A stretch of DNA of 64,000 nt, taken from positions 126,537 through 190,536 of the forward strand of contig NZ_LMRD01000001.1 in the NCBI RefSeq assembly GCF_001425575.1, in the 5' to 3' direction. Below the pieces are notes generated by a model. It had not been told where the DNA came from and searched no databases. It saw nothing but the letters and a program-made list of their open reading frames with translations. A program made the translations under genes and the position numbers. The DNA comes from Aurantimonas sp. Leaf443 (lineage in GTDB: Bacteria > Pseudomonadota > Alphaproteobacteria > Rhizobiales > Rhizobiaceae). This document shows, piece after piece, positions 7,631-21,819 of this stretch. Positions within the stretch are counted from its first letter, which is position 1, and each line of letters starts with the position of its first letter.

Positions 7631-7634
<4 letters not shown>

Positions 7635-8905
7635 CGATGCAGGAGCCGGTCGATCATCGGCTTGGTGACGAGGCAGATGCCGGACTCGGTGCGCCGGAAG
7701 CGCTGGCCGTCGAGTTCGGGATCCTCGCCGATGACGAGCCCGTCGGGGATGATGACGCCGCGGTCGACGACGGCGTTCTTCACCCGCGCGTGCCGGCCGA
7801 TCTGGCAATGCGGCAGGATGACGGAGTTCTCGACATGGCTGAAGGAGCGCTGGCGCACGCCGGTGAAGAGGAGCGAGCGGTTGAGCGAGCCGCCCGAGAT
7901 GATGCAGTCGCCCGAGACGAGGGAGGAGACCGCGTAGCCGCGCCGGCCGTCCTCGTCATGCACGAACTTCGCCGGCGGCACGGTCTCGGCATAGGTCCAG
8001 ATCGGCCAGTCGCGGTCGTAGATGTCGAGCGGGGGCACCACGTCGGTGAGGTCGATATTGGCCTGCCAGTAGGCGTCGATCGTGCCGACGTCGCGCCAGT
8101 AGGCCTCGCCCACCGGCTCGTCGGCCGAGCGCACGACGGAGCGGTTGAAGCGGTGCGCATAGGCTTTGCCGTGGCGCACGATATGCGGGATGATGTCCTT
8201 GCCGAAGTCGCGGTCCGAGGTCGGGTCGGCCGCGTCGCGGCGCAGCTGGTCCATCAGGAAGGTCGTGTCGAAGACGTAGATGCCCATCGAGGCGAGCGCC
8301 GTGTCCGGTCGTCCGGGAACGGCCGGCGGGTCCTTGGGCTTCTCGACGAAGTCGGTGATCCGGTACTCGGTGTCGACATGCATCACGCCGAAGCCGACCG
8401 CCTCCATGCGCGGGACCTCCAGGCAGCCGACGGTGACGTCGGCTCCCGTGTCCACGTGCTGCTGGAGCATCAGCTCGTAGTCCATCTTGTAGATGTGGTC
8501 GCCCGCCAGGATCACGATGTAGCGCGGCGCGTAGTCCTCGATGATGTCGATGTTCTGGTAGACCGCGTCGGCCGTGCCCGCATACCACTGGTCCTCCGAC
8601 ACGCGCTGGCTGGCCGGCAGGATGTCGAAGCTCTCGTTGCGGCCCGGCCGCAGGAAGTTCCAGCCGTTCTGCAGGTGCCGGATGAGGCTGTGCGCCTTGT
8701 ACTGCGTCGCGACGCCGATGCGGCGGATGCCCGAGTTGATGGCGTTGGAGAGGGCGAAGTCGATGATGCGGGTCTTGCCGCCGAAATAGACGGCGGGCTT
8801 GGCGCGCACGTCCGTCATCTCCATGAGGCGCGAGCCGCGCCCGCCGGCGAGCACATAGGCCATGGACTCGCGCGAGAGCGATGCGATTCTTCGGCGGTCC
8901 GCCAT
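7631..8905 (-). CDS. glgC: Glucose-1-phosphate adenylyltransferase GlgC
   Basis: A 424-residue ADP-glucose pyrophosphorylase, the committed and allosterically controlled step of glycogen synthesis. The pyrophosphorylase signature [16 protein letters not shown] and [16 protein letters not shown] sit at the N-terminus. [23 protein letters not shown] and VEKPKDPP follow, and a left-handed beta-helix fills the C-terminal third ([19 protein letters not shown]). The start ATG at 8905 has a good ribosome binding site (GGGAGGA) 7 nt upstream. It begins a subcluster with glgA, pgm and glgX, separated from glgP by about 240 bp, so it may have its own promoter. Confidence 0.97.
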
Positions 8906-9069
8906 GTCCAGTCCTCCCGAGACTCTTTTACCCGGCCGGTCGCCGAAGGGCGCGGTGCGCCGATGGCGCCCGCGGCTCGGTTCTCTTCCGGCCCTTGGGG
9001 GGATTGGGGGTGCGAACGGGGGGGCTGTCAAGCCGGCGCGGGCGCCGAGGCCGCGGCGGGCGTGAAACT

Positions 9070-9135
9070 CCCGCGGGAAAACCGCGGGCGGAAGCGCCGG
9101 AGGGCGCGGCGGGCTCGGTCCAGGGCCCGCCGCGC
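9070..9135 (-). terminator. Two hairpins after glgP (possible terminator or processing site)
   Basis: On the glgP strand, directly after its stop codon, a perfect 11-bp stem (GCGCGGCGGGC/GCCCGCCGCGC, 9104-9114 with 9125-9135) is followed by a second 7-bp stem (CCCGCGG/CCGCGGG, 9070-9088) with an A/T-rich 5-nt loop. There is no clear U-tract, so this may be an attenuator or RNA-processing site rather than a full terminator. It separates pgi-glgP from glgC-glgA-pgm-glgX. Confidence 0.4.
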
Positions 9136-9143
9136 CGCCGTTT

Positions 9144-11642
9144 TCAGGCGCCGGGACCGGCCTTCCAGATGTCGGCCGCATACTCGCGAATCGAGCGGTC
9201 GGAGGAGAACCAGTGCATGCGGGCCGTGTTGTGGACGGCCTTGGTGTGCCAGTCCGACTGGTCGCGATAGAGCGCGTCGAGCTTGCGCTGGGTCTCCCAG
9301 TAGGCCTGGAAGTCGGCGCAGATCATCCACCAGTCGTTGTTGAAGAGATTGCCCACGAGCCCGTGGTAGCGCGACGGCTCGTCCGGGCTGAAGACGCCCG
9401 AGGAGATGGCGTGCAGCGCTTCGCGCAGGAGCGGCGAGCTCTCGATGATCGAGCGGCCGGAATGGGCCTCCGCGCGGCGCTTGGCGACTTCGGGCGCCGT
9501 CAGGCCGAAGATGAAGATGTTCTCCTCGCCCACATGCTCCAGCATCTCGACATTGGCCCCGTCGAGCGTGCCGATGGTCAGCGCGCCGTTCAGGGCGAAC
9601 TTCATGTTGCCGGTGCCCGACGCCTCGAGGCCGGCCGTCGAGATCTGCTCGGAGATGTCGGCCGCCGGCATGATGATCTCGGCGAGCGAGACATTGTAGT
9701 TCGGGATGAACACGACCTTCAGGAGATCGCGCACCGACGGATCGGAATTGATGATCCGCGCCACGTCGTTGGCCAGATGGATGATCTCCTTGGCCTGCGC
9801 GTAGCTCGGCGCCGCCTTGCCGGCGAAGATCTTCACCCGCGGCGTCCAGTCGAGGTCGGGCCGCGAGCGGATCTGCTCGTAGAGCGCGATCGCCTCGATG
9901 ATGTTGAGGAACTGGCGCTTGTATTCGTGGATGCGCTTGACCTGGATGTCGAAGATCGCCTCCGGGTCGAGCGTGATGGCGAGGCGCTCGGAGACGACGT
10001 CGGCGAGCCGCTGCTTGTTGGCGCGCTTCACCGCGGCGAACTTCTCGCGGAACGCGGCGTCGCCGGCCATCCTGTCGAGATCGGCGAGGCGCGCGATGTC
10101 GTCCTTGAAGGCCGGGCCGATCGCCTCGGTCACGAGGCTCGTCAGGCCCGGATTGGACTGCATCAGCCAGCGGCGCGGCGTGACGCCGTTGGTCTTGTTC
10201 TGGATGCGGTCGGGATAGAGCTCGTGCAGCGCGCGGAACACCGTGTCCTTCATGAGGTCGGTGTGGAGCGCGGAGACGCCGTTCACGGCATGCGAGCCCA
10301 CGAAGGCGAGCTGGCCCATGCGCACGCGCTTGCCGTTGCCCTCGTCGATCAGCGAGATGGCCGAAACGCGCCCGCCGTCGAAGCCGCGCTCCTGCGAGGC
10401 CTCGCGGATGACCGCGGCGTTGATGGCGTAGATGATCTGCATCTGGCGCGGCAGGAGGCGCTCGAAGAGATGCACCGGCCAGTGCTCCAGCGCCTCGGGC
10501 AGGAGCGTGTGGTTGGTGTAGGAGAAGGTCGCCTGGGTGATCTCCCAGGCTTTCGCCCATTCGAACCCGTGCACGTCGACGAGAAGGCGCATCAGCTCGG
10601 CGACGGAGACGGCCGGATGCGTGTCGTTCAGCTGGATGGAGACCTTGTCGGCAAGGTTCGACAGGTCGTCGTTCTCCGAGAGGTGCCGGCGCAGGATGTC
10701 CTGCAGCGAGGCGGAGGAGAAGAAGTATTCCTGGCGCAGGCGCAGTTCCTGGCCCGCCTGATGCGAATCGGCGGGATAGAGGACGCGGGTGATCGCCTCG
10801 GCCTTGTTGGACTCCACCAGCGCGCCGATATGGTCGCCGGAATTGAAGGCGTCGAGCAGGATCGGGTCGAGCGCCTGCGCGCTCCACAGGCGCAGCGTGT
10901 TCACGCGGTTGCCGCGCCAGCCGACCATCGGCGTGTCGAAGGCGACGGCGAGCACCCGCTCGGACGGGCGCCAGACCTGGCGCACGGGGCGGCCGGGCTC
11001 CTGGAAGGCACTGACCTTGCCGCCGAAGCCGATCTCGTAGGCGAGCTCGCGGCGCTCGAACTCCCAGGGGTTGCCGTGGACGAGCCAGGTCTCGGGCAGT
11101 TCCACCTGCGCGCCGTCGGCGATCTCCTGGCGGAAGAAGCCGTGAACGTAGCGGATGCCGTAGCCGAAGCCGGGCACGCCGGTCGTCGCCATGGATTCCA
11201 TGAAGCAGGCCGCCAGACGCCCGAGACCGCCATTGCCGAGCGCGGCGTCCGGCTCCAGGAGTTCCACCATGTCGAGCTTGACGCCGAACCGGTCGAGCGC
11301 CTCGCCGACGGTCTGCGTGAGGCCGAGATTGTCGATCGCGTCGCGCAGGAGGCGCCCGATCAGGAATTCCATCGACAGGTAGCAGACGCGCTTGGCGCCG
11401 GCTTCCTTGGTCTCCTGCGCCGAATGCATCCAGCGGTCGATGATGCGGTCGCGCACGGCGAGCGTCGTGGCGTGCAGCCAGTCGTAGCGGCGCGCCTCGG
11501 CGGGCGTCTTGCCGATCGAGTAGGTCAGCCGCTCGACGATCTCCGAGGCCAGCGTGTCGGCGTCGTTGACGCGCAGGGCCGGGCGCGCCACCGAGGTCGG
11601 CGTCTCGATCTCGTCTTCGATCTTCACGGTCGCGGAACTCAT
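9144..11642 (-). CDS. glgP: Glycogen/starch/alpha-glucan phosphorylase
   Basis: An 832-residue GT35 phosphorylase releasing glucose 1-phosphate from alpha-1,4-glucan ends. Landmarks are [15 protein letters not shown], the [19 protein letters not shown] block, [26 protein letters not shown] and the pyridoxal phosphate lysine in [15 protein letters not shown]. Length matches bacterial GlgP/MalP. The ATG at 11642-11640 overlaps the pgi stop (ATGA); the frame is open 43 codons upstream into pgi, a shadow. In rhizobial glg operons glgP is usually followed by glgB, which is absent here. Confidence 0.96.
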
Positions 11643-13291
11643 GCCTGTCTCATCCTTCGGATCGCCTCGACCAGCCCCGCCGTGGAGGCGTCGCGGCCCT
11701 CTGGTGTCGCCTTGCCCGTGACCACCGGAACGAGGGCGTTGGCAAGTTCCTTGCCGAGCTCCACGCCCCACTGGTCGAAGGCGTTGATGCCGTAGAGCGC
11801 CGCCTCGACGAAGACGCGGTGCTCGTAGAGCGCGATGAGGCGCCCGAGCGTCGCGGGGTCGAGGCGGTCGTAGAGAAGGGTGACCGAGGGCCGGTCGCCG
11901 GGAAAGGTGCGGTGCGGGGCGAGGCGCTCGGCATCGCCCTGCGAGCGGCCGGCCGCCAGCAACTGGCGTCGCGCCTCCTCCATCGAGCGGCCGCGCATCA
12001 GCGCCTCGCTCTGGGCGAGGCAGTTGGCAAGGAGAAGGTCCTGATGGACGTTCATCTTCGGGCCCTCGTGGGCGTTCGCCCCGACCATGAACTCCACGGG
12101 CACGACGGCCGTGCCCTGGTGCAGGAGCTGGAAGAAGGCATGCTGCCCGTTGGTGCCCGGCTCGCCCCAGACGACGGGGCCGCTGACGCTGACCGGCTCG
12201 CCGTCGAGCCCGACGCGCTTGCCGTTCGATTCCATGTCGAGCTGCTGGAGATAGGCGGGAAAGCGCGAGAGGCGCTGGTCGTAGGGAATGACGGCGCGGC
12301 TCGCATGGCCGAGGACGGCGTGGTGCCAGTAGCCGACGAGGCCGAGCAGGACCGGCAGGTTCTCACGCGGCGGCGCGTCGCGGAAATGCAGGTCCATCTC
12401 GCGCGCGCCGGAGAGGAAGGCTCGGAAATTCCCTTCGCCGACGGCGATCATCAGCGGCAGGCCGATGGCCGACCAGAGCGAATAGCGCCCGCCGACCCAG
12501 TCCCAGAAGCCGAAGATGCGCGCCGCGTCGATGCCGAAGGCGCCCACCTTGTCGAGCGCGGTGGAGACGGCGGCGAAATGGCTGCCGACCGCCGCCTCGC
12601 CGAGCGAGGCGACGAGCCACGCCCGCGCGGTGGCGGCGTTGGTCATGGTCTCGATCGTGGTGAAGGTCTTGGAGGCGACGACGACGAGTGTGCGCGCGGG
12701 ATCGAGGCCTTCGAGCGTGTCGGCGATATGGGCGCCGTCGACATTCGAGACGAAGTGGCAGCGCGGACCGTCGTGATAGGGGGCGAGCGCCAGCACCGCC
12801 ATCACCGGCCCGAGATCGGAGCCGCCGATGCCGATATTGACGACGTCGGTGATCCTCTCGCCGGTCGCGCCGGTGACGGTGCCGGCCCGAAGGCCCTCGG
12901 CGAAGCGGCCCATCGCCGCGAGCACTGCCTCGACGTCCCCGCCGACGGGCTTGCCCTCGGCCTCGTAGCCGTCCTCGGGGCGCCCGCGCAGCGCCACATG
13001 CAGCACCGAACGGTGCTCGGTTGCGTTGATCGGGGCGCCGGAGAACATCGCGGCCCGCTTCTGCGAAAGTTCGCAGCGCTCGGACAGGGCGACGAGCGCG
13101 TCGAGCGCCGCCGCGTCGAGGCTCGTCTTGGAATAGTCGAGGAGGAGGTCGCCGAGCCGCGCCGAGAAGCGCCGGAAGCGCTCGGGGTCGGCGGCGAACA
13201 GCGCCTTGATGCCGCGCTCGCCGGCCTGTCGGCCAAGCTCGGGCAGCCGGTCCGCGGCCGTTTCGTCGGAGGCTGAGAAAGTTGCGTTCAT
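11639..13291 (-). CDS. pgi: Glucose-6-phosphate isomerase
   Basis: A 550-residue Pgi interconverting glucose 6-phosphate and fructose 6-phosphate. Family signatures: [49 protein letters not shown], and near the C-terminus [14 protein letters not shown] (catalytic Lys). The start at 13291 ([15 protein letters not shown]) is preferred over an in-frame Met 23 codons upstream because family alignments begin here. It heads the glycogen operon, connecting Calvin-cycle fructose 6-phosphate to glucose 1-phosphate via pgm. The gene before it, tamB, belongs to a separate unit on the same strand. Confidence 0.97.
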
Positions 13292-13331
13292 CCCGTCCCG
13301 TTCCGTGCCTGCATCGCTCGATCCGGCCAGC

Positions 13332-13360
13332 CTCTTACGCATCCGACATACGCTTGGCAA
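13332..13360 (-). promoter_or_regulatory. Possible sigma-70-type promoter for the pgi-glg operon
   Basis: On the minus strand TTGCCA (13360-13355) is followed after 17 nt by TAAGAG (13337-13332). That puts a transcript start about 35 nt before the pgi ATG. The -35 element is good and the -10 weak. It is the best candidate seen in the 285-bp pgi-tamB gap. Confidence 0.3.
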
Positions 13361-13576: not shown

Positions 13577-16500
13577 CTAGAACTCGCCCTCGTAGAACAC
13601 GCCGACCTGGCCGCCGCCGGTGGCCGACACGGCGCCGCGCGCCTTCAGCCCGCCGCCGAGCTTCAGGTCGATGGAGACCTGGCCGGTGGAATCGACGCCG
13701 AGATAGGTGTTGTCGTTGAGATATTTGCCGACGCCGACCGCGGTCTGCCCGTCGGCGGTCGTCTTGATATCGAGATCGTCGACGCCGAGCTGGGCCCGCA
13801 GGTTCTCCAGAAGCCCCGTCGAGCCGCCGACCCCTGCCAGCGTGGCCGCCGCCTCCGCGAGCTGGGCGATCTGCAGCGGCGAGAGATCGGCCGTGCCCTG
13901 GCCGAAGATCAGGCGCGCCAGGACCTCGTCCTGCGGCAGCGCCGGTTCGGACGAGAAGGTGAAGCTCGGATCGTTGGCAGGTCCCGTCACCGAGATCGAG
14001 ACGGTCACGTCGCCCGTGTCGGAGGTCGCCAGGAGATCGAGCGTCGGCACGAGCCCGCCGGTGAAGGTGAGGATGCCGCGCTCGAAGTCGAGCCGGCGCG
14101 ACAGGACGCGGAAGCGCCCGCGCTGCAGCTCGAACCCGCCGACGATGGAGGGCGAGGCCGCCGAGCCGGTGATGCGGATGGACCCGCCGAGCTCGATGTC
14201 GAGGCCACGACCGCGCACGAAGACGCGGGACGGCGCGTTGAAGGTGAGGTCGAGATCGATGCCGCCGCCGCCGCCGCCGGAGCGACCCTTGGGGAAGAGC
14301 TCCTCCTGCTGGCGATAGACGGCGGGCCGGGCGTTGCGATGCGTCACGTCGATGCGCGCCAGCGAGGTCGGCAGGCGCTCGGGCACGATCACGTCGATCT
14401 CGCGCGCGTTCAGCGTGCCCGACAGGCGCGGCGTGCCGGTGAGGGGGCCCGTCAGCGCCAGATCGGCCGAGAGCTGGATCGACAGGAGATCGCCGTCCGC
14501 ATAGCGCCCGTCGACGATCTGGACCCGGATGTCCGCCTCGAAGGGCGGGCGCAGCGCCACCGAGCCGCCGACGGCGATGCGCCCGCCCGAGGCGAGATTG
14601 GCCGAGAAGGCCCCGATCGTCGCGCGGTCGCCGTTCAGCGAGATGGTCGTGGAAATGTTGTTGATGGCGAGATTGGTGCCGGTGTCCACGAAGCGGGCGC
14701 CCGCCGTGGAGACGGTGCCGGTGACGTTCGGCTGCGTCGCCGGTCCCGCGATCCGCGCGTCGATGCGCACCGTGCCCTCGATGGAGCGGCCGCCTTCCGC
14801 AAGGATCCGGTTGGCGAGGGCGAGCGGCGCCGTGCCGTTCACCGCCAGATCGAGCTGCGGGGCGCCGGCCAGGGTCACAGAGCCCGCGGCCGTGAGCGCC
14901 AGCCCGCTGCCCGAAAGGCGCGTGTCGGTCGTGAGCCGGCGGTCGGCGAAGCGCCCGGTCGTGGTGATGGCGAGCGCGCCGACGCCCGCGTCCCGCGTCT
15001 GCTGGATCGAGACGCCGCTCGCGCGGATGTCGTAGGCGGCGACCGGGTTGGAAGGCGAGCCCGACACGTTCGCCGTGCCCGAGATCGTGCCCTGCGGGGC
15101 GATGCCCGGGGCGAAGGAGCCGGCGATGGAGGCGGGAAGGTCGGCGATGGCGATGTCGAGGTCGAGCGCCTGCGCCCCGGCCGAGCCCGTGGCGCTGATC
15201 GTGCCGCCGCCGACGCGAACCTGCGCGGCCGACAGCTGGACCGTGCCGGCGCGATAGGTGCCGGCCGCATTGGCGTTGACCGCCGGCGCGCCGGCGGCCC
15301 GTCCCTGCGCCACCGAGATGGCGTCGGCGCGAAGGTCGAAGCGGGCATCGGGGTTGGACAGCTGCCCGGTCGCCGCGGCCGTGCCCGAGACCGTCCCCTG
15401 CGCGCCGAGCCCGTCCACGAAACCGTTGGCGAGGCCGACCGGCACCGTGTCGAGCGTCACGGCGATGTCGAGCGTGCGCCCGACGCGGCCCGTCGCGACG
15501 ATGGACCCGCGGCCGATGTCGACGCGCGCGTTCGACAGGTCCGCGCTGCCGTTCTCGTAGGTGCCGGCGACGTTGAGGCTCAGCGGCGCGACGCCGGACT
15601 CGGCGATCTTGCGCGTGGTGATGCCGCTGCCCGAGACGTCGAACCGTGCCACCGGGGCGCCGAGCGTTCCGCTCGCCCTGGCGCTGCCGGTGAGCGCGCC
15701 GCGCGCCTCGAGCCCCTCCACGAAACCGTTGGCGAGGCCGACGGGGAGGCGGTCGACCGTGAGGTCGAGGTCGAGCCTGTCGCCGATCGTGCCGGTGGCG
15801 CTCAGCGAGCCTTCGCCGACCGTGACATTGGCCCGCTCGATCGTGGCGCTCGCCGCGCCGTAGCGGCCGGCGACGTCGAGCGTCAGCGGCGCTATGCCCG
15901 AGCGCTTGATGTCGGCCGTCGTCAGCCCGGCGCCCTGCAGGGCGAAGACGGCGGAGGGGTCGGACAGCGAGCCCGTCGCGGTGCCCGTGCCGGTCAGCGT
16001 GCCTTCCGCGCCGAGCCCTTCGACGAAGCCGTTGGCGAGCGCCACGGGCAGGCGTTCGAGGGCAAGCGAAAGGTCGAGCCGGCGCCCGACCGTGCCTTGC
16101 GCCGTCAGCGAGCCGTCGCCGACGCTCACGCGCGTGTCGCCGAGCGTCAGCGTGCCGTCGGCGAGCGTGCCGGACGCCGTGAGGTCGAGCGGCGGCACGC
16201 CCTTCTCTGCGATGTCGCGCGCGGTGATGCCGCTGCCGCCGAGCTGGAACCGCCCGGCGGGCGCGGCGAGCGTGCCTTGTAGGTCGGCTGTGCCCGAGAG
16301 CGTGCCGCGAGCGTTCAGGTCGGGCACGAAGCCGTTGGCGAGCGCGACGGGGAAGGCGTTCAGCGCGAGATCGAGATCGAGCGTGCGTCCGACCGTGCCG
16401 CTCGCCTGGAGCGAGCCCTCGCCGACATTGACGACGGCCGTCTGGAGGCTCGCCGTGCCGTCGGTCGCGGTGCCGGTGAGGCGCAGCGACAGGGGCGGCG

Positions 16501-19500
16501 TGCCCGAACGCTCGATCGCCGCCGTCGTGATGCGCGTGCCGGTGATGTCGAACGCCCCGTCCGGCGCGGTGCGCGGGCCTGTGGCCCTCGCCGTGCCCGA
16601 AAGGGTGCCGGAGGCGTCGAGCCCCGGCACGAAGCCGTTGGCAAGACCCATCGGCAGGTCGGTCATGGCGAGGTCGAGATCGAGCGTGTCGCCGATCGTG
16701 CCGGTCGCCGTCAGCGAGCCGTCGCCGACATTTACCCGGCCCTCGTCGAGCCGCACGGTGCCGGCGTCGTAGCCGCCGGCGACGCGCAGTGTCAGGGGAG
16801 CGATGCCGGCCTCGGCGATCTCGCGGGCGGTGATCGCGTCGCCGGCGAGGCGGAAAGTCGCGACGGGCGCCGCGCGCGGCCCCGTCACGTCGGCCTCGCC
16901 CGACAGCGTGCCGGAGGCCTCGAGACCCGACACGAAGTCGTTGGCGAGGGCGGCGGGCAGGTCCGCGAGGCGGATGTCGAGGTCGAAGGTCTCGCCCACC
17001 GTGCCGCTCGCCTCCAGCCGCCCCTCGCCGATCGTCGCGCGGGCGGTGTCCAGGGCGAGGACGGCGTCTCGGTAACTTCCCCTGGCGTCGAGCGCGATGG
17101 CCGGAAGCCCGGCGCCGCGCGTCTGGCCGGTGGAGAGGTCGCGGCCTTCGAGGGCGAAGCTCGCCTGCGGCGCGTCGGCGGCACCGGTCACGCTCGCCGT
17201 GCCCGTCAGCGTGCCGCGGGCGTCGATGCCGGCCACGAAGGGGGCGGCGATGGCCGCGGGCAGGCGGTCCAGGACAAGCGCCAGATCCAGCGTCTCGCCG
17301 CTCGTGCCCGAGACGCTCGCCGAGCCGTCGCCTGCATCGAGGCGGATCGTGCCCAGAGTCGTCGTCCCGTCCGCGATGCGGATGCTGGCGGGCGCGGCGA
17401 GGCGCAGCGGCGCGTCGGGAATGGCGGCATTGAGCGTCGACAGGTCGAGCACCGTCTCGCCCGGCGCGACGCGCGCCGTGCCGGCGAGCGCCACGGGGAT
17501 GCCGTTCAGCGCGGCATCCGCCTCGAAGGCGTTCGCCTTCGTCTCGCCCGCGCCGGTCGTCGAGAGGCGCAGGTCGAGATCGGCGGCCGTCACCGTTCCG
17601 GCCGCGAGCGAGGCGGCCGTCACCGTGCCGTCGGCGGTCGGGATGCCCAGATAGTCCGACACGGCGAGATCGATACGGGCATCGGCGAGATCGGCGCCGG
17701 AAACCGAAAGGGCGCGCGTCGTCAGATCCACGGCGGCGACGGGCGTCGCGTCGGCCTCGACGCGAAGGTCCACCGTGCCGTTGACGTCGCCGGAGGCGGC
17801 GAGGCCGCCGAGCGCCGCGAGCGGGCCGATGTCCTCAACCGCGACGGTCAGGGTGCCGACGGGCGCGAAGGCTTGCGTCAGCTGCAGCGCCCCGGTGATG
17901 GCGTTCGGGCCCTGGCGGATGGCGATGTCGGAAATCCGACGCTCGCCGTTCGCAAGCGTCTCGAGATCGGCCTCGCCGGTCAGCGGCTGGCCGTCCAGCG
18001 TGCCGGAGATGCGCAGAGACCCGGTCGGGGCGGCGCTCGCCAGCGTGCCGCGCGCCTCGACCTCGAGGTCGGCGAGCTCGCGCCCGTTGATCGACAGGCC
18101 GTTGCCCGAAAGCGCGAGATCGACATCGGGCTGGTCGCTCGGCCCGCTGGCGGTGAGGCGGAAGTCGGCCGCGCCCGAGAGCGCCGAGGTCACCGCGCCG
18201 CTGTTGGCGATGCGGCCGGCGATATCGGCGCTCACCTGGTCCTGTGCGAGCTGCGCCTGTCCCGTCACGGTCAGGCCTTCGCTCGCGACGGAGAGCGTCG
18301 TCGCCGAAAGCGCGCCGTCCGCTGCGCGCGCGACGCGCCCGCCGACGCTCGTCTCGTCGCCGGCGATGGGCACGAGGGCGGCGGAGAGCGCGGAGGTCTG
18401 GAAGCGGCTGTCGAGCGTCAGGTCGAAGACCGAGAAGTCGAGCGCCGCCGTGCCGTTGACGCCGAGCCGGGCCGTCTCCGTCACGGCCTCGCTCGGCTCC
18501 AGCGTCAGGCCGGCCGGCGTCAGCGCGCCGTTCAGCGCGATCCGCACCGGGCCCGTCAGGAAGCGCTGCTGGAGCCCTTCGGGCGCGCGGAAGGTCGCCG
18601 CCTCCGCCGTCAGCGACAGGGGCCCGCGCAGCGCGCGCAGGTCGAAGCTCCGGCTCGTCGCGCGCGCGTTCACGGTCTGCGCGCCGTATTCGCCGGAGGC
18701 GAAGGCGCCAAGACGGGCGGAGAGATCCACGTTGGCGGCGGTGAGCGCGCCGGAGAGGCGCGCGTCCATGCCGGCGAGCGAGAGCGTCGTGCGGTTCGGC
18801 TCGGCGCCGAATGCGAGCGGGATGGCGCCGCCGCCCGGCGCCGCCAGCGCCAGCGTCAGATCGTTGCCGGCGCCCGAGAGGTCGAGCGTGCCGGCGGCGT
18901 CGAGCGCGAGCGCGTCGGAGGCAAGGCGGCCGGTCTCGATGCGATAGGTGCCGTCGGCGGCGAGGAGGACGGTCGCATCGAGCGCGGTGGAGCCGGCGAG
19001 ATAGGGCTTCACGCTCTGCGGCACGAAGCGCTCGGCCGCCACGTTCAGGGACAGAGACACGCGCCGCCCTTCGGCGCCCTGGGTGGCGCGCGCCGTCAGC
19101 GTCGCGGCCTCGGTCGCGCCCACCGAGAGCGCGCCGTTCGCCATGAAGTCGGACAGGGGGCCCGCGCCCTTGATCGACAGGTCGACGGCCGGCCGGTCCG
19201 CGAGGTCGAGCAGCGTCGCCACGAGCCCGCCCTGCGGCTCGCTGGCGGCGATGTCGAGCGTCAGCTGGTTCTCGTCGGGCGCGAAGGCGACGTTCAGCGC
19301 GATGCGGCCGGGCTGGTCCAGCCGGTCGATCGTGGCGCGCAGCGTCAGGTTCGTCGGGTCGGCGGCGAGACGCAGGGCCGCGTCGGCGCGCAGCCGCGCC
19401 CGCGTGCCGGCGATGGCCTCGCCGAGCACGAACTCGCCGATCGTCAGCTTGCGGATGTCGGCGGTGATCGAGGGCAGCGAGAAGCCCGAGCCCTCGCTGT

Positions 19501-19849
19501 CCGGGCTCTCCGGCTGCCCGGTCGGCAGCCGCTCCAGCACGATCTGGCCGGCGGTGAGGCTCTCGATCGAGACGTTCGAGCGCACGAGGGCGAGCGGCGA
19601 CCAGTCCATCGCGAGATCGCGCGCCGTCAGGAACACGCCCTGCGGATCGGAGGCGGTGACGCTCTCGATGCGCAGGTTGCCGGTGAGGGCGCCCGACAGG
19701 CCCTCGATCTCCACCGTCATCGTGTCGGACGAGAGCAGCTTCTCGATCTGGTCGGCGACGAAGCCCTGCGCGGCGGCCGGCCGGGCACCGGGCCCGGCTG
19801 CGGCGAACAGGAGGGCGAGGAAAGCGAGGGCGAGGGAACGCAGCATCAT
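13577..19849 (-). CDS. tamB: Translocation and assembly module protein TamB, with 101-residue tandem repeats
   Basis: A 2090-residue TamB (AsmA-like superfamily, DUF490 C-terminus). These proteins are inner-membrane-anchored, span the periplasm as a long beta-taco, and work with TamA in outer-membrane protein insertion or phospholipid transport. An N-terminal signal/anchor (MMLRSLALAFLALLFAAAGP) is followed by SSDTMTVEIEGLSGALTGNL, typical of TamB. The C-terminus ends in FYEGEF, with the conserved DEVLARLIFG segment about 170 residues before it. Between about residues 837 and 1578 an approximately 101-residue unit repeats, each copy bearing a motif like LANGFVxGLxAxGTLSGxA. The ATG overlaps the tamA stop by one base. 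The frame continues upstream through tamA only as a shadow. Confidence 0.93.
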   Translation of the reverse strand: MMLRSLALAFLALLFAAAGPGARPAAAQGFVADQIEKLLSSDTMTVEIEGLSGALTGNLRIESVTASDPQGVFLTARDLAMDWSPLALVRSNVSIESLTAGQIVLERLPTGQPESPDSEGSGFSLPSITADIRKLTIGEFVLGEAIAGTRARLRADAALRLAADPTNLTLRATIDRLDQPGRIALNVAFAPDENQLTLDIAASEPQGGLVATLLDLADRPAVDLSIKGAGPLSDFMANGALSVGATEAATLTARATQGAEGRRVSLSLNVAAERFVPQSVKPYLAGSTALDATVLLAADGTYRIETGRLASDALALDAAGTLDLSGAGNDLTLALAAPGGGAIPLAFGAEPNRTTLSLAGMDARLSGALTAANVDLSARLGAFASGEYGAQTVNARATSRSFDLRALRGPLSLTAEAATFRAPEGLQQRFLTGPVRIALNGALTPAGLTLEPSEAVTETARLGVNGTAALDFSVFDLTLDSRFQTSALSAALVPIAGDETSVGGRVARAADGALSATTLSVASEGLTVTGQAQLAQDQVSADIAGRIANSGAVTSALSGAADFRLTASGPSDQPDVDLALSGNGLSINGRELADLEVEARGTLASAAPTGSLRISGTLDGQPLTGEADLETLANGERRISDIAIRQGPNAITGALQLTQAFAPVGTLTVAVEDIGPLAALGGLAASGDVNGTVDLRVEADATPVAAVDLTTRALSVSGADLADARIDLAVSDYLGIPTADGTVTAASLAAGTVTAADLDLRLSTTGAGETKANAFEADAALNGIPVALAGTARVAPGETVLDLSTLNAAIPDAPLRLAAPASIRIADGTTTLGTIRLDAGDGSASVSGTSGETLDLALVLDRLPAAIAAPFVAGIDARGTLTGTASVTGAADAPQASFALEGRDLSTGQTRGAGLPAIALDARGSYRDAVLALDTARATIGEGRLEASGTVGETFDLDIRLADLPAALANDFVSGLEASGTLSGEADVTGPRAAPVATFRLAGDAITAREIAEAGIAPLTLRVAGGYDAGTVRLDEGRVNVGDGSLTATGTIGDTLDLDLAMTDLPMGLANGFVPGLDASGTLSGTARATGPRTAPDGAFDITGTRITTAAIERSGTPPLSLRLTGTATDGTASLQTAVVNVGEGSLQASGTVGRTLDLDLALNAFPVALANGFVPDLNARGTLSGTADLQGTLAAPAGRFQLGGSGITARDIAEKGVPPLDLTASGTLADGTLTLGDTRVSVGDGSLTAQGTVGRRLDLSLALERLPVALANGFVEGLGAEGTLTGTGTATGSLSDPSAVFALQGAGLTTADIKRSGIAPLTLDVAGRYGAASATIERANVTVGEGSLSATGTIGDRLDLDLTVDRLPVGLANGFVEGLEARGALTGSARASGTLGAPVARFDVSGSGITTRKIAESGVAPLSLNVAGTYENGSADLSNARVDIGRGSIVATGRVGRTLDIAVTLDTVPVGLANGFVDGLGAQGTVSGTAAATGQLSNPDARFDLRADAISVAQGRAAGAPAVNANAAGTYRAGTVQLSAAQVRVGGGTISATGSAGAQALDLDIAIADLPASIAGSFAPGIAPQGTISGTANVSGSPSNPVAAYDIRASGVSIQQTRDAGVGALAITTTGRFADRRLTTDTRLSGSGLALTAAGSVTLAGAPQLDLAVNGTAPLALANRILAEGGRSIEGTVRIDARIAGPATQPNVTGTVSTAGARFVDTGTNLAINNISTTISLNGDRATIGAFSANLASGGRIAVGGSVALRPPFEADIRVQIVDGRYADGDLLSIQLSADLALTGPLTGTPRLSGTLNAREIDVIVPERLPTSLARIDVTHRNARPAVYRQQEELFPKGRSGGGGGGIDLDLTFNAPSRVFVRGRGLDIELGGSIRITGSAASPSIVGGFELQRGRFRVLSRRLDFERGILTFTGGLVPTLDLLATSDTGDVTVSISVTGPANDPSFTFSSEPALPQDEVLARLIFGQGTADLSPLQIAQLAEAAATLAGVGGSTGLLENLRAQLGVDDLDIKTTADGQTAVGVGKYLNDNTYLGVDSTGQVSIDLKLGGGLKARGAVSATGGGQVGVFYEGEF
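15114..17338 (-). repeat. 303-bp in-frame tandem repeat array inside tamB
   Basis: A marker segment encoding (A/G)LAN(G/D)FV recurs at 15420, 15723, 16026, 16329, 16632, 16935 and, more diverged, 17238. That is exactly 303 bp each time. A further diverged copy lies 306 bp on, at 15114. Each unit encodes about 101 residues ending in GSLxATGTxGxxLDLDL. Copies differ at many positions, so the duplication is old or has diverged under selection while the length stayed fixed. Confidence 0.9.
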
Positions 19850-21819
19850 CAGAAGGCCTGCCCGATACCGGCATAGATCTGGTAGGAGGCGTCGCGCGGA
19901 CCCGGATCGAGCGGGATGCCGACGTCGAGCCGGATGGGGCCGAAGCTCGTGAGGTAGCGGGCGCCGAGCCCCGCGCCCATCTTCAGGTCCGAGAAGCTCG
20001 GCACGTAGTCGTCCGACACCGTGCCGAAGTCGAGGAAGGGCACGATCTGGATCGTCTCGGTCACGCCGATGCGCGCTTCCACCGAGCCCTCGAACACGGT
20101 GAGCCCGCCGGTCGGCGTGTCGGTGAAGTCCTCGTTGAAGCCCGAGCCTTCCGGCACGAAGTCCGGGAAGTAGGGGCCGATCGACTGGAACTCGTAGCCG
20201 CGCACCGAGCCGCCGCCGCCGGCATAGAAGCGCCGGTCGTTGGGGATGTCCTCGAGGTCCGCGCCGAAGATCGTGCCGTAGCCGAGCCGGCCGGCCAGGA
20301 TCAGCCGGTCGCTGTCGGTGAGCGAGAGATAGGCCGAGCCGTCGAGCCGGGTCTTGGCGAAATAGGCTTCGCCGTCGAGCGTCGCCGTCGGCTCGAACAG
20401 GGCCTTGGCGAGGAAGCCCTCGGTCGGGTTCAGCGCGTTGTCGCGGTTGTCGAACGTGTAGGTCAGGGGCACGGAGAGGAGCGTGTAGCCCTTGGTGCCG
20501 GTATAGTCGGTGATCTCCTCGTACTCGGCCCGCACGATGGCCGAGGCCTTCTGCGTCTTGTCGATCTCGTACTCGACGCCGCTCGTGGCGGCGTAGGAGA
20601 GACGGTCGTAGGCCAGCGGCTGCTCGCGCTTCAGCTCGAGCGAGCCGATATAGACGGAGTCGGGCCCGAGCACGCCGGGCTTCTTGAACACGAGCGAGGC
20701 GGAGAAGTCCGGCTCGGTCGTCTCGCGCGCCTGCTCGCTCACGGCCGTCGCCCCGATGCGGCTGACGGCGGCGTCGAAGCGCAGCGATTCGGCGCGTCCG
20801 AAGAGGTTGCGATGGCCGATATAGCCGGAGGCGCCCGCGCCTTCCGTGTTCGAATAGGTCGCGCCCGCGCCGTAGAAGCCGAACTTGCGCTCGCCCACCT
20901 CCACCTGCACCGGCAGCGTGCCGTCGGCCTCCTGGGCCTTGGCCTCCTTGACGGTGACGGAGGAGAAGACGCCGAGCTTGAGGAGGCGGTCGCGCGCGAT
21001 GTCGAGTTCCTCGGGCGAGAAGACCTTGCCCGCCTCCACGCCCGCCATGTAGGCGACGAAGCCCGGATCCACCGCCTCCGCCCCGTCCACATAGGTCGCG
21101 CCGAAGGGCACGCGCGGGCCGGGCGAGAGGTCGATCGTATAGTCCAGACGGTCGCGCGCGGCGTCCGCGATCACGTCGCGCCGCGTCACGGCCACGAAGG
21201 GCCGTCCGTCGTCGCGCAGCGCCCGCAGCATCTTGGCCTCGCCGTCGAGCACGTCGACCGAGGCGGCCGAGCCGCCGGTCGTGAGGTCGTACTGCGCGGG
21301 ATCGACCGGCAGGCCGCCGGCCGAGACGCGCACCTGGCCGAGCGCGTAGACCGGGCCCGGCTCGACGCGGATCGAGACGGGCACCGGGCGCGAGCGGTCG
21401 AACGTGGCGTCGGGCGCCAGCGTCTCGATGTCCCGCCCCTCGATGAAGATGCGCGCGATGCCGTCGTAGCGGGCGTTCTCGAAGAGGGCCGCCACGAGGC
21501 GCTTGCGGTCGTTGCGCGCCTTGGACAGCAGCCCGAGCGAGCCGGAGACGGGCGCGTCGGCGTCGGAGACGAGCGTCGAGGCCTTGTTCAGCTCCTCCTG
21601 GAGCCCGGCGACGTCGCCGGGGCCGGGCTGCACGGTGAGGGAGACCTGGTAGGAGAGGGGATCGACGACGTCCTCGCCCTCCTCCTCCGCGCTCTCGAAG
21701 ATCTTGAAGCCGAAGATCTCGAACGCGCCCGCGGGGCTCGCGCCGATCGGCCCCGACAGCGCCAGGGCGAGGCAGAGAGCCAGCGGGAGCTTCGCTCCGG
21801 ATCGGTCGGTATCGTGCAA
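19849..21819 (-). CDS. tamA: Translocation and assembly module outer-membrane protein TamA
   Basis: A 656-residue Omp85-family protein. A signal peptide (LPLALCLALALSGPIGASPAGA) precedes POTRA domains (about 50-290), then a 16-stranded barrel domain. The conserved barrel motif appears as GGGGSVRGYEFQ, followed by VFEGSVEARI, FLDFGTV and a C-terminal strand ending in Phe. It begins with TTG (21819-21817), because no ATG or GTG lies suitably before the signal peptide; GAGAG upstream could be the ribosome binding site. It is co-transcribed with tamB (1-base overlap) and diverges from coxS. Confidence 0.94.
   Translation of the reverse strand: MHDTDRSGAKLPLALCLALALSGPIGASPAGAFEIFGFKIFESAEEEGEDVVDPLSYQVSLTVQPGPGDVAGLQEELNKASTLVSDADAPVSGSLGLLSKARNDRKRLVAALFENARYDGIARIFIEGRDIETLAPDATFDRSRPVPVSIRVEPGPVYALGQVRVSAGGLPVDPAQYDLTTGGSAASVDVLDGEAKMLRALRDDGRPFVAVTRRDVIADAARDRLDYTIDLSPGPRVPFGATYVDGAEAVDPGFVAYMAGVEAGKVFSPEELDIARDRLLKLGVFSSVTVKEAKAQEADGTLPVQVEVGERKFGFYGAGATYSNTEGAGASGYIGHRNLFGRAESLRFDAAVSRIGATAVSEQARETTEPDFSASLVFKKPGVLGPDSVYIGSLELKREQPLAYDRLSYAATSGVEYEIDKTQKASAIVRAEYEEITDYTGTKGYTLLSVPLTYTFDNRDNALNPTEGFLAKALFEPTATLDGEAYFAKTRLDGSAYLSLTDSDRLILAGRLGYGTIFGADLEDIPNDRRFYAGGGGSVRGYEFQSIGPYFPDFVPEGSGFNEDFTDTPTGGLTVFEGSVEARIGVTETIQIVPFLDFGTVSDDYVPSFSDLKMGAGLGARYLTSFGPIRLDVGIPLDPGPRDASYQIYAGIGQAF

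Follow-up and report, generated by a model that had tools for sequence, protein, structure and literature searches.

Arrays of a module of about 101 residues in TamB-family proteins of Aurantimonas and related bacteria

TamB contains a U-shaped hydrophobic groove, which binds lipids in simulations (PMC12800296), and it has been proposed as a chaperone of outer-membrane protein strands (PMC5719984). Heinz (2015) described TamB length as "relatively consistent" with a few very long exceptions, and the passages of that paper on TamB length name no repeat unit (PMC4494059). Here we describe a tamB-family gene (13577..19849, minus strand) found in a 64,000-nucleotide stretch of Aurantimonas sp. Leaf443, which is called the window throughout. 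Its open reading frame encodes 2090 amino acids (aa). As in E. coli and other proteobacteria, the protein carries PF04357 at its C-terminus, the gene adjoins an Omp85/TamA-like gene, and a long amphipathic beta-sheet is predicted. Unlike E. coli TamB (1259 aa), however, the window TamB reaches its length with eight copies of one unit. Tandem duplication of this module of about 101 aa, at a single fixed place, has probably lengthened the amphipathic beta-groove. Sequence profiles indicate that in ordinary TamBs of the order a single module immediately precedes the C-terminal block, and that several lineages have from 2 to about 12 copies.

Enlargement of a groove protein by internal duplication is also found in the eukaryotic bridge proteins VPS13C and VPS13D, where central domains of about 500 residues were duplicated (PMC7613979). 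While the repeating beta-groove (RBG) domain of these proteins has five strands, the TamB unit has six predicted strands. Growth in RBG domains generally is placed mostly before the last eukaryotic common ancestor (PMC7613979), whereas species of a single genus differ in TamB copy number. Another similar case is the periscope adhesins, which are made of tandem folded domains whose number sets the protein length (PMC8201768). These are surface adhesins with highly similar domains, while TamB is periplasmic and its diverged units form one sheet. AsmA-like proteins (PF05170) belong to the same beta-groove superfamily as TamB (PMC11014939) but, unlike TamB, vary little in length in the same genomes (19 genomes and further genomes of genus g72). 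No description of repeat arrays or stepwise length in bacterial TamB was found in the open literature, as judged by titles, abstracts and the cited passages.

The array of the window consists of eight full units arranged head to tail (residues 846-1654; 14888-17314, minus strand). These are unit 1 (residues 846-946; 17012..17314), unit 2 (947-1047; 16709..17011), unit 3 (1048-1148; 16406..16708), unit 4 (1149-1249; 16103..16405), unit 5 (1250-1350; 15800..16102), unit 6 (1351-1451; 15497..15799), unit 7 (1452-1553; 15191..15496), which has 102 aa, and unit 8 (1554-1654; 14888..15190), which is the most diverged. A LANGFV-type motif starts at residues 867, 968, 1069, 1170, 1271, 1372, 1473, and 1575 (window 17234-17251, 16931-16948, 16628-16645, 16325-16342, 16022-16039, 15719-15736, 15416-15433, and 15110-15127). 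A preliminary description of the window had reported an exact 303-base-pair (bp) tandem repeat at 15114-17338. The array is real and its spacing is regular (303 bp six times, then 306 bp for the last step), but the units are only 27-57% identical in protein and 50-67% in DNA, and the range given clipped the last unit. Within the array, protein identity at a lag of 101 residues is 0.442, whereas 1000 shuffles give 0.099 ± 0.011 (maximum 0.131). DNA identity at a lag of 303 bp is 0.584, compared with a mean of 0.313 (standard deviation 0.037) over lags 30-899. Autocorrelation over the full protein length gives peaks at 101, 202, 303, and 404 aa. Tandem Repeats Finder, run with periods up to 500, reported no period-303 array. 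No pair of units resembles a recent duplicate, and the window array is old.

Residues 792-1702 of the window TamB were modelled by AlphaFold2 together with 16 relatives, giving a mean predicted local distance difference test score (pLDDT) of 88.6 and a predicted template modelling score (pTM) of 0.58. In all eight units the predicted order is strand, helix, two strands, helix, and three strands (i.e., six strands and two short helices). With six strands apiece, the units contribute six rungs each to the predicted sheet. This agrees with the suggestion in the preliminary description that the unit length could reflect a structural module. Hydrophobic and polar residues alternate across the 54 predicted strands (2.50 compared with 1.43 when shuffled), and, column by column, hydropathy profiles show a correlation of 0.60 between units (shuffled 0.001, maximum 0.073). 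In this model, therefore, one unit corresponds to six rungs of amphipathic sheet. At a rise of 4.8 Å per beta-strand, one unit would measure about 29 Å. Sequence matches to solved TamB (9xdc and 23sp; E-values 4.8e-7 and 1.4e-5) cover residues 1676-2037 only, which is downstream of the array.

The array is flanked by an N-terminal block (residues 1-845; 17315..19849, minus strand) and a C-terminal block with the TamB domain (residues 1655-2090, with the stop codon; 13577..14887, minus strand). Lengths were compared in 110 of 134 proteins, or 108 distinct ones after two duplicates were removed. The remaining 24 have no N-terminal anchor match, have 622-aa blocks (see below), or have a short C-terminal block. 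Each additional copy lengthens the protein by 97 aa (r = 0.97). For copy numbers 1-9 and 11, the median lengths are 838-889 aa for the N-terminal block and 436-450 aa for the C-terminal block. The latter also ranges from 436 to 450 aa between its 5th and 95th percentiles, with a maximum of 521 aa, and the N-terminal block is exceptionally long (1077-1361 aa) in G005, G009, and G011. The small Spearman correlations of block length with copy number (0.23 for the N-terminal and -0.45 for the C-terminal block) are read here as lineage effects. Unit spacing is exactly 101 aa in 168 of 339 cases and 97-111 aa in the remainder, except for one of 122 aa. The proposal that the protein grew by whole-unit duplication is borne out by the comparisons of units and by the unit trees described below. 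The mode of growth is thus fairly clear. Two single-unit TamBs (L045 in G011 and L049 in G009) have an N-terminal block about 515 aa above the usual length, without a strong internal repeat.

Loci of relatives were obtained with an alignment of the TamB C-terminal block as query; a scan of genome contigs with the whole protein found none. By this block, the closest named relatives belong to Aurantimonas, Fulvimarina, Jiella, Aureimonas, and Consotaella (65-76% identity). Copies were counted by two profiles, one of the eight window units (40 relatives) and one of 31 units (249 genomes of the order). With the first profile, at least one unit above 15 bits is found in 38 of the 40 relatives. One unit is found in all 12 relatives with open frames of 1391-1458 aa, two in seven of the nine with 1544-1589 aa, and seven, with a period of 107, in G028. 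G046 and G018 show no unit in this set, where another or a split frame was taken, and G046 has two with the 31-unit profile. The order and a class sample were counted from only the best 19-20 first-look candidates per genome, so that copy numbers may be low: 131 of the 249 genomes of the order match the 31-unit profile, 93 with exactly one copy and 38 with more, and 23 of 239 other genomes in the class sample have exactly one unit (E <= 0.001) and none has more. Of the 190 genomes of a second class sample, 60 have the TamB domain (E <= 1e-20). Apart from the window TamB, no open frame longer than 1695 aa is listed among the class-sample genomes with a TamB domain. Because the profile was built from this order, very different unit arrays outside it could be missed. 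By these counts the unit appears to be an ordinary part of TamB, commonly present once, and the repeat is not a universal property of TamB, given the single copy in 93 of 131 matching genomes of the order and in all 23 of the class sample.

Copy numbers are 8-9 in Aurantimonas, Fulvimarina, and Jiella; 4, 5, and once 8 in Aureimonas; 5 in Consotaella; 4 in Corticibacterium; 1, 2, or 7 in Neorhizobium and Rhizobium; and 6 in Rhizobiales L149. In 13 genomes of genus g72 there are 11, 11, 4, 6, 11, 10, 9, 4, 4, 11, 11, 6, and 12 unit matches, although in G522 one unit of a split frame was counted twice. Since each species is represented by one genome, the variation looked for among related genomes (4-12 matches within g72) is variation between species. 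Among the 80 named loci, L112, L125, L137, L138, L143, L144, and L152 could not be read because the C-terminal-block motif was unmatched, L098 (at a contig end) and L082 (a broken frame) have no array count, and some others are incomplete. In L082, from Jiella pelagia, the tamB frame is broken and only the last 658 aa are open. In G164, TamB units lie on two contigs (L167 and L168): three of them precede a C-terminal block, and the other five are within a 969-aa frame. These may be one split gene or two genes.

Unit trees were made from 28 Aurantimonas-type TamBs (midpoint rooting) and from 120 units of 27 proteins. In the former, the first units (unit 1 of the window) form one clade and the last units (unit 8) another. 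All 28 first and all 28 last units have their nearest unit of another genome in the same position class, as do 27 of the 28 second, 27 of the 28 penultimate, and 86 of the 87 central units. The two clades and this matching of positions indicate that the array is ancestral to the Aurantimonas group, with fixed ends and a changing middle. Only four of the 87 central units are closer to a unit of their own protein. Units 5 and 6 of Jiella endophytica are identical at 86% of residues and 0.855 of bases, and the DNA identity of units 8 and 9 of G270 is 0.82. The end units are thus old and have kept their positions, and the central units reflect more recent duplication or conversion. Of 39 outgroup units, 38 (including eight of the nine single units) are nearest to a last unit, always that of Consotaella (L092). 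This is expected from the position of the single unit before the C-terminal block, and unit 8 of the window probably corresponds to the one unit that ordinary TamBs have. In the 120-unit tree, the units of other families are grouped by lineage; support is 0.986 for f34, 0.995 for L149, and 0.982 for Corticibacterium. This makes at least three expansions besides that of Aurantimonas likely. The arrays of family f18 and of the Aurantimonas type could share one ancestral expansion.

Another form of repeat is found in Mesorhizobium. Here the repeated block has 622 aa and consists of the unit and about two thirds of the N-terminal block. It exists twice in L106, L111, L120, L126, L133, L139, and L151, three times in L128, L132, and L147, and once in other Mesorhizobium TamBs (e.g., L101, L103, L122, L135, and L145). 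A similar block of about 593 aa is found twice in Rhizobium setariae (L121).

The even number of strands in a unit may explain how the groove could be lengthened. Whenever a copy is gained or lost, the later strands would keep their direction and the amphipathic alternation would stay intact. An in-frame duplication would therefore give a working longer groove at once. Homologous recombination between copies would then add or remove whole units. The product would be a longer or more coiled conduit from the inner membrane to the TamA-like partner, for lipids or outer-membrane protein strands, and it would gain reach or capacity, not a fit to one membrane distance.

Several observations weigh against this account. 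The even-strand argument is based on the single model of the window array, whose pTM of 0.58 leaves the overall path of the predicted sheet unsettled. The model of the 622-aa block (pLDDT 87.2) has 39-41 strands per period in a hand count in which broken strands are ambiguous, so that parity could go either way. Foldseek matches to solved structures are led by ApoB100 and LptD (lipid-handling beta-sheets) and by barrels, with low template modelling scores, and the fold match to TamB 9xdc_B is 34th in rank, with Z 7.3 over 242 residues (5.3 Å), where the tool's telling level is Z 8. VPS13, ATG2, and TamB 5VTG are not among the matches listed, which is no proof of dissimilarity. In the 120-unit tree, clade support is only 0.119 for the Aurantimonas-type units and 0.251 for family f18.

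As for the reason for growth, the favoured explanation is that elongation is structurally cheap and is kept by selection, and its strongest rival is neutral drift in unit number. For eight related genome pairs, in which two genomes occur twice, the ratio of nonsynonymous to synonymous substitution rates (dN/dS) is 0.063-0.248 for the array and 0.079-0.272 for the N-terminal block, and that of the C-terminal block is lower than both in every pair. From these ratios, purifying selection on the array appears similar to that on the remaining protein, and the added units appear to be kept about as carefully as the remaining groove. Under neutral elongation, units with an even number of strands would be structurally silent, their number would drift by recombination, and selection would act only against misfolding, without any benefit of length. 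This is a serious possibility, if somewhat short of probable. It would account for 4-12 copies within one genus while the AsmA-like proteins of the same genomes change little, and for a partner and flanks without clear matching change (about 20 aa between families in the TamA-like protein, and a few aa in the C-terminal block). It is harder to reconcile with array growth in several lineages, with the retention of at least four units in all 28 countable Aurantimonas-type TamBs, and with array dN/dS similar to that of the N-terminal block. A length-adjustable conduit, in which the number of units is under selection in its own right and determines reach or lipid-holding capacity, is a rather doubtful proposition; several lineages would have gained it, either through single units or, in Mesorhizobium, through the 622-aa block, and largely independently of other AsmA-like bridges.

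The preliminary description had suggested that the length of the protein is fitted to the width of the periplasm, so that the number of units would be tuned for TamB to span the periplasm of each species. This is improbable, although for eukaryotic RBG proteins a match between domain number and gap width has been proposed (PMC7613979). In 19 genomes, open frames of the AsmA-like proteins have 1192-1416 aa in the long form and, for the most part, 582-706 aa in the short form. In 11 genomes of g72, the long AsmA-like protein has only 1198-1272 aa while TamB differs by up to eight units, or about 800 aa; G111 (a 1402-aa open frame, probably running upstream) and G524 (a split gene) were left out. 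These near-constant lengths argue against simple matching of periplasm width. There is a weak trend in its favour, as the long AsmA-like protein of g72 is slightly longer with more TamB units (rho 0.67, p 0.024, n = 11, uncorrected for kinship; rho 0.47, p 0.12 with G111 included). The published model of E. coli TamB measures 178 Å coiled and 246 Å stretched (PMC11014939), and the membranes of wild-type E. coli in hyperosmotic medium are 30-32 nm apart (PMC8824477). Scaled from that model, 2090 aa would give about 295-408 Å, which is at or beyond this distance. Fast switching of length between strains, in the style of periscope adhesins, would likewise use tandem units of one folded module, and some central pairs are closer (0.855 for units 5 and 6 of Jiella endophytica; 0.82 for units 8 and 9 of G270). 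It is nevertheless very improbable, as periscope arrays have highly similar domains (PMC8201768), the window units at 50-67% DNA identity are too diverged for frequent recombination, and TamB is not a surface protein. Finally, repeats are prone to mis-assembly and a single unit is widespread, so the array might be an artefact of assembly or gene prediction or an ordinary property of all TamBs. The chance of this is negligible, given that the units are diverged, that open-frame arrays exist in the assemblies of 27 named relatives, and that no genome of the class sample has more than one unit.

Other candidate causes were considered. The TamA-like protein has 630-661 aa (a tblastn estimate for 55 loci), with medians of 634-635 aa for 1, 2, and 7 units and 652-654 aa for 5, 8, and 9 units. 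As this difference of about 20 aa is read as a family difference that forms no series with copy number, the idea that TamB length follows TamA length was rejected. YhdP (PF13116) is too weak as a second ruler, since it matches in 13 of the 19 genomes but not in G000, and in one genome above the cut-off. The type of N-terminus was also rejected as a cause, since anchor-like and signal-peptide-like starts, as judged by eye, both occur with one and with many units. By the same inspection, the N-terminus of the window TamB (19766-19849) and those of the Aurantimonas group resemble a cleavable signal peptide ending in AxAQ, while other lineages are anchor-like. E. coli TamB has a membrane anchor at this place.

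A general question about bridge proteins, among them TamB, YhdP, and VPS13, is how length is related to the gap that is bridged. The TamB arrays provide a natural graded series of 1 to about 12 homologous modules in otherwise alike proteins, even within one genus, and the related proteins that change little serve as internal controls.

The PF04357 match of the window TamB (E 1.2e-49 at residues 1748-2090) is above the cut-off, and both PF04357 matches of the genome are in this frame. An Omp85-family gene encoding a TamA-like protein of 656 aa (PF01103, E 1.5e-49) exists directly upstream (19849..21819, minus strand). Its stop codon and the ATG of tamB share one base (TGATG, window 19849). An Omp85 gene followed by tamB is the tamA-tamB arrangement. 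The NCBIfam equivalog for E. coli-type TamB (ATportTamB, NF047952) gives 223.9 bits against a cut-off of 825, and the TamA model gives 109.1 bits against 625. Because both are under the equivalog cut-offs, the proteins are named TamB family and TamA-like. Assignment to the family is thus made from PF04357 and gene context, and the ATportTamB equivalog is not claimed. Downstream of tamB (7631-13360, minus strand) are genes for phosphoglucose isomerase and a carbohydrate phosphorylase, followed by a putative gene for ADP-glucose pyrophosphorylase, judged from its translation.

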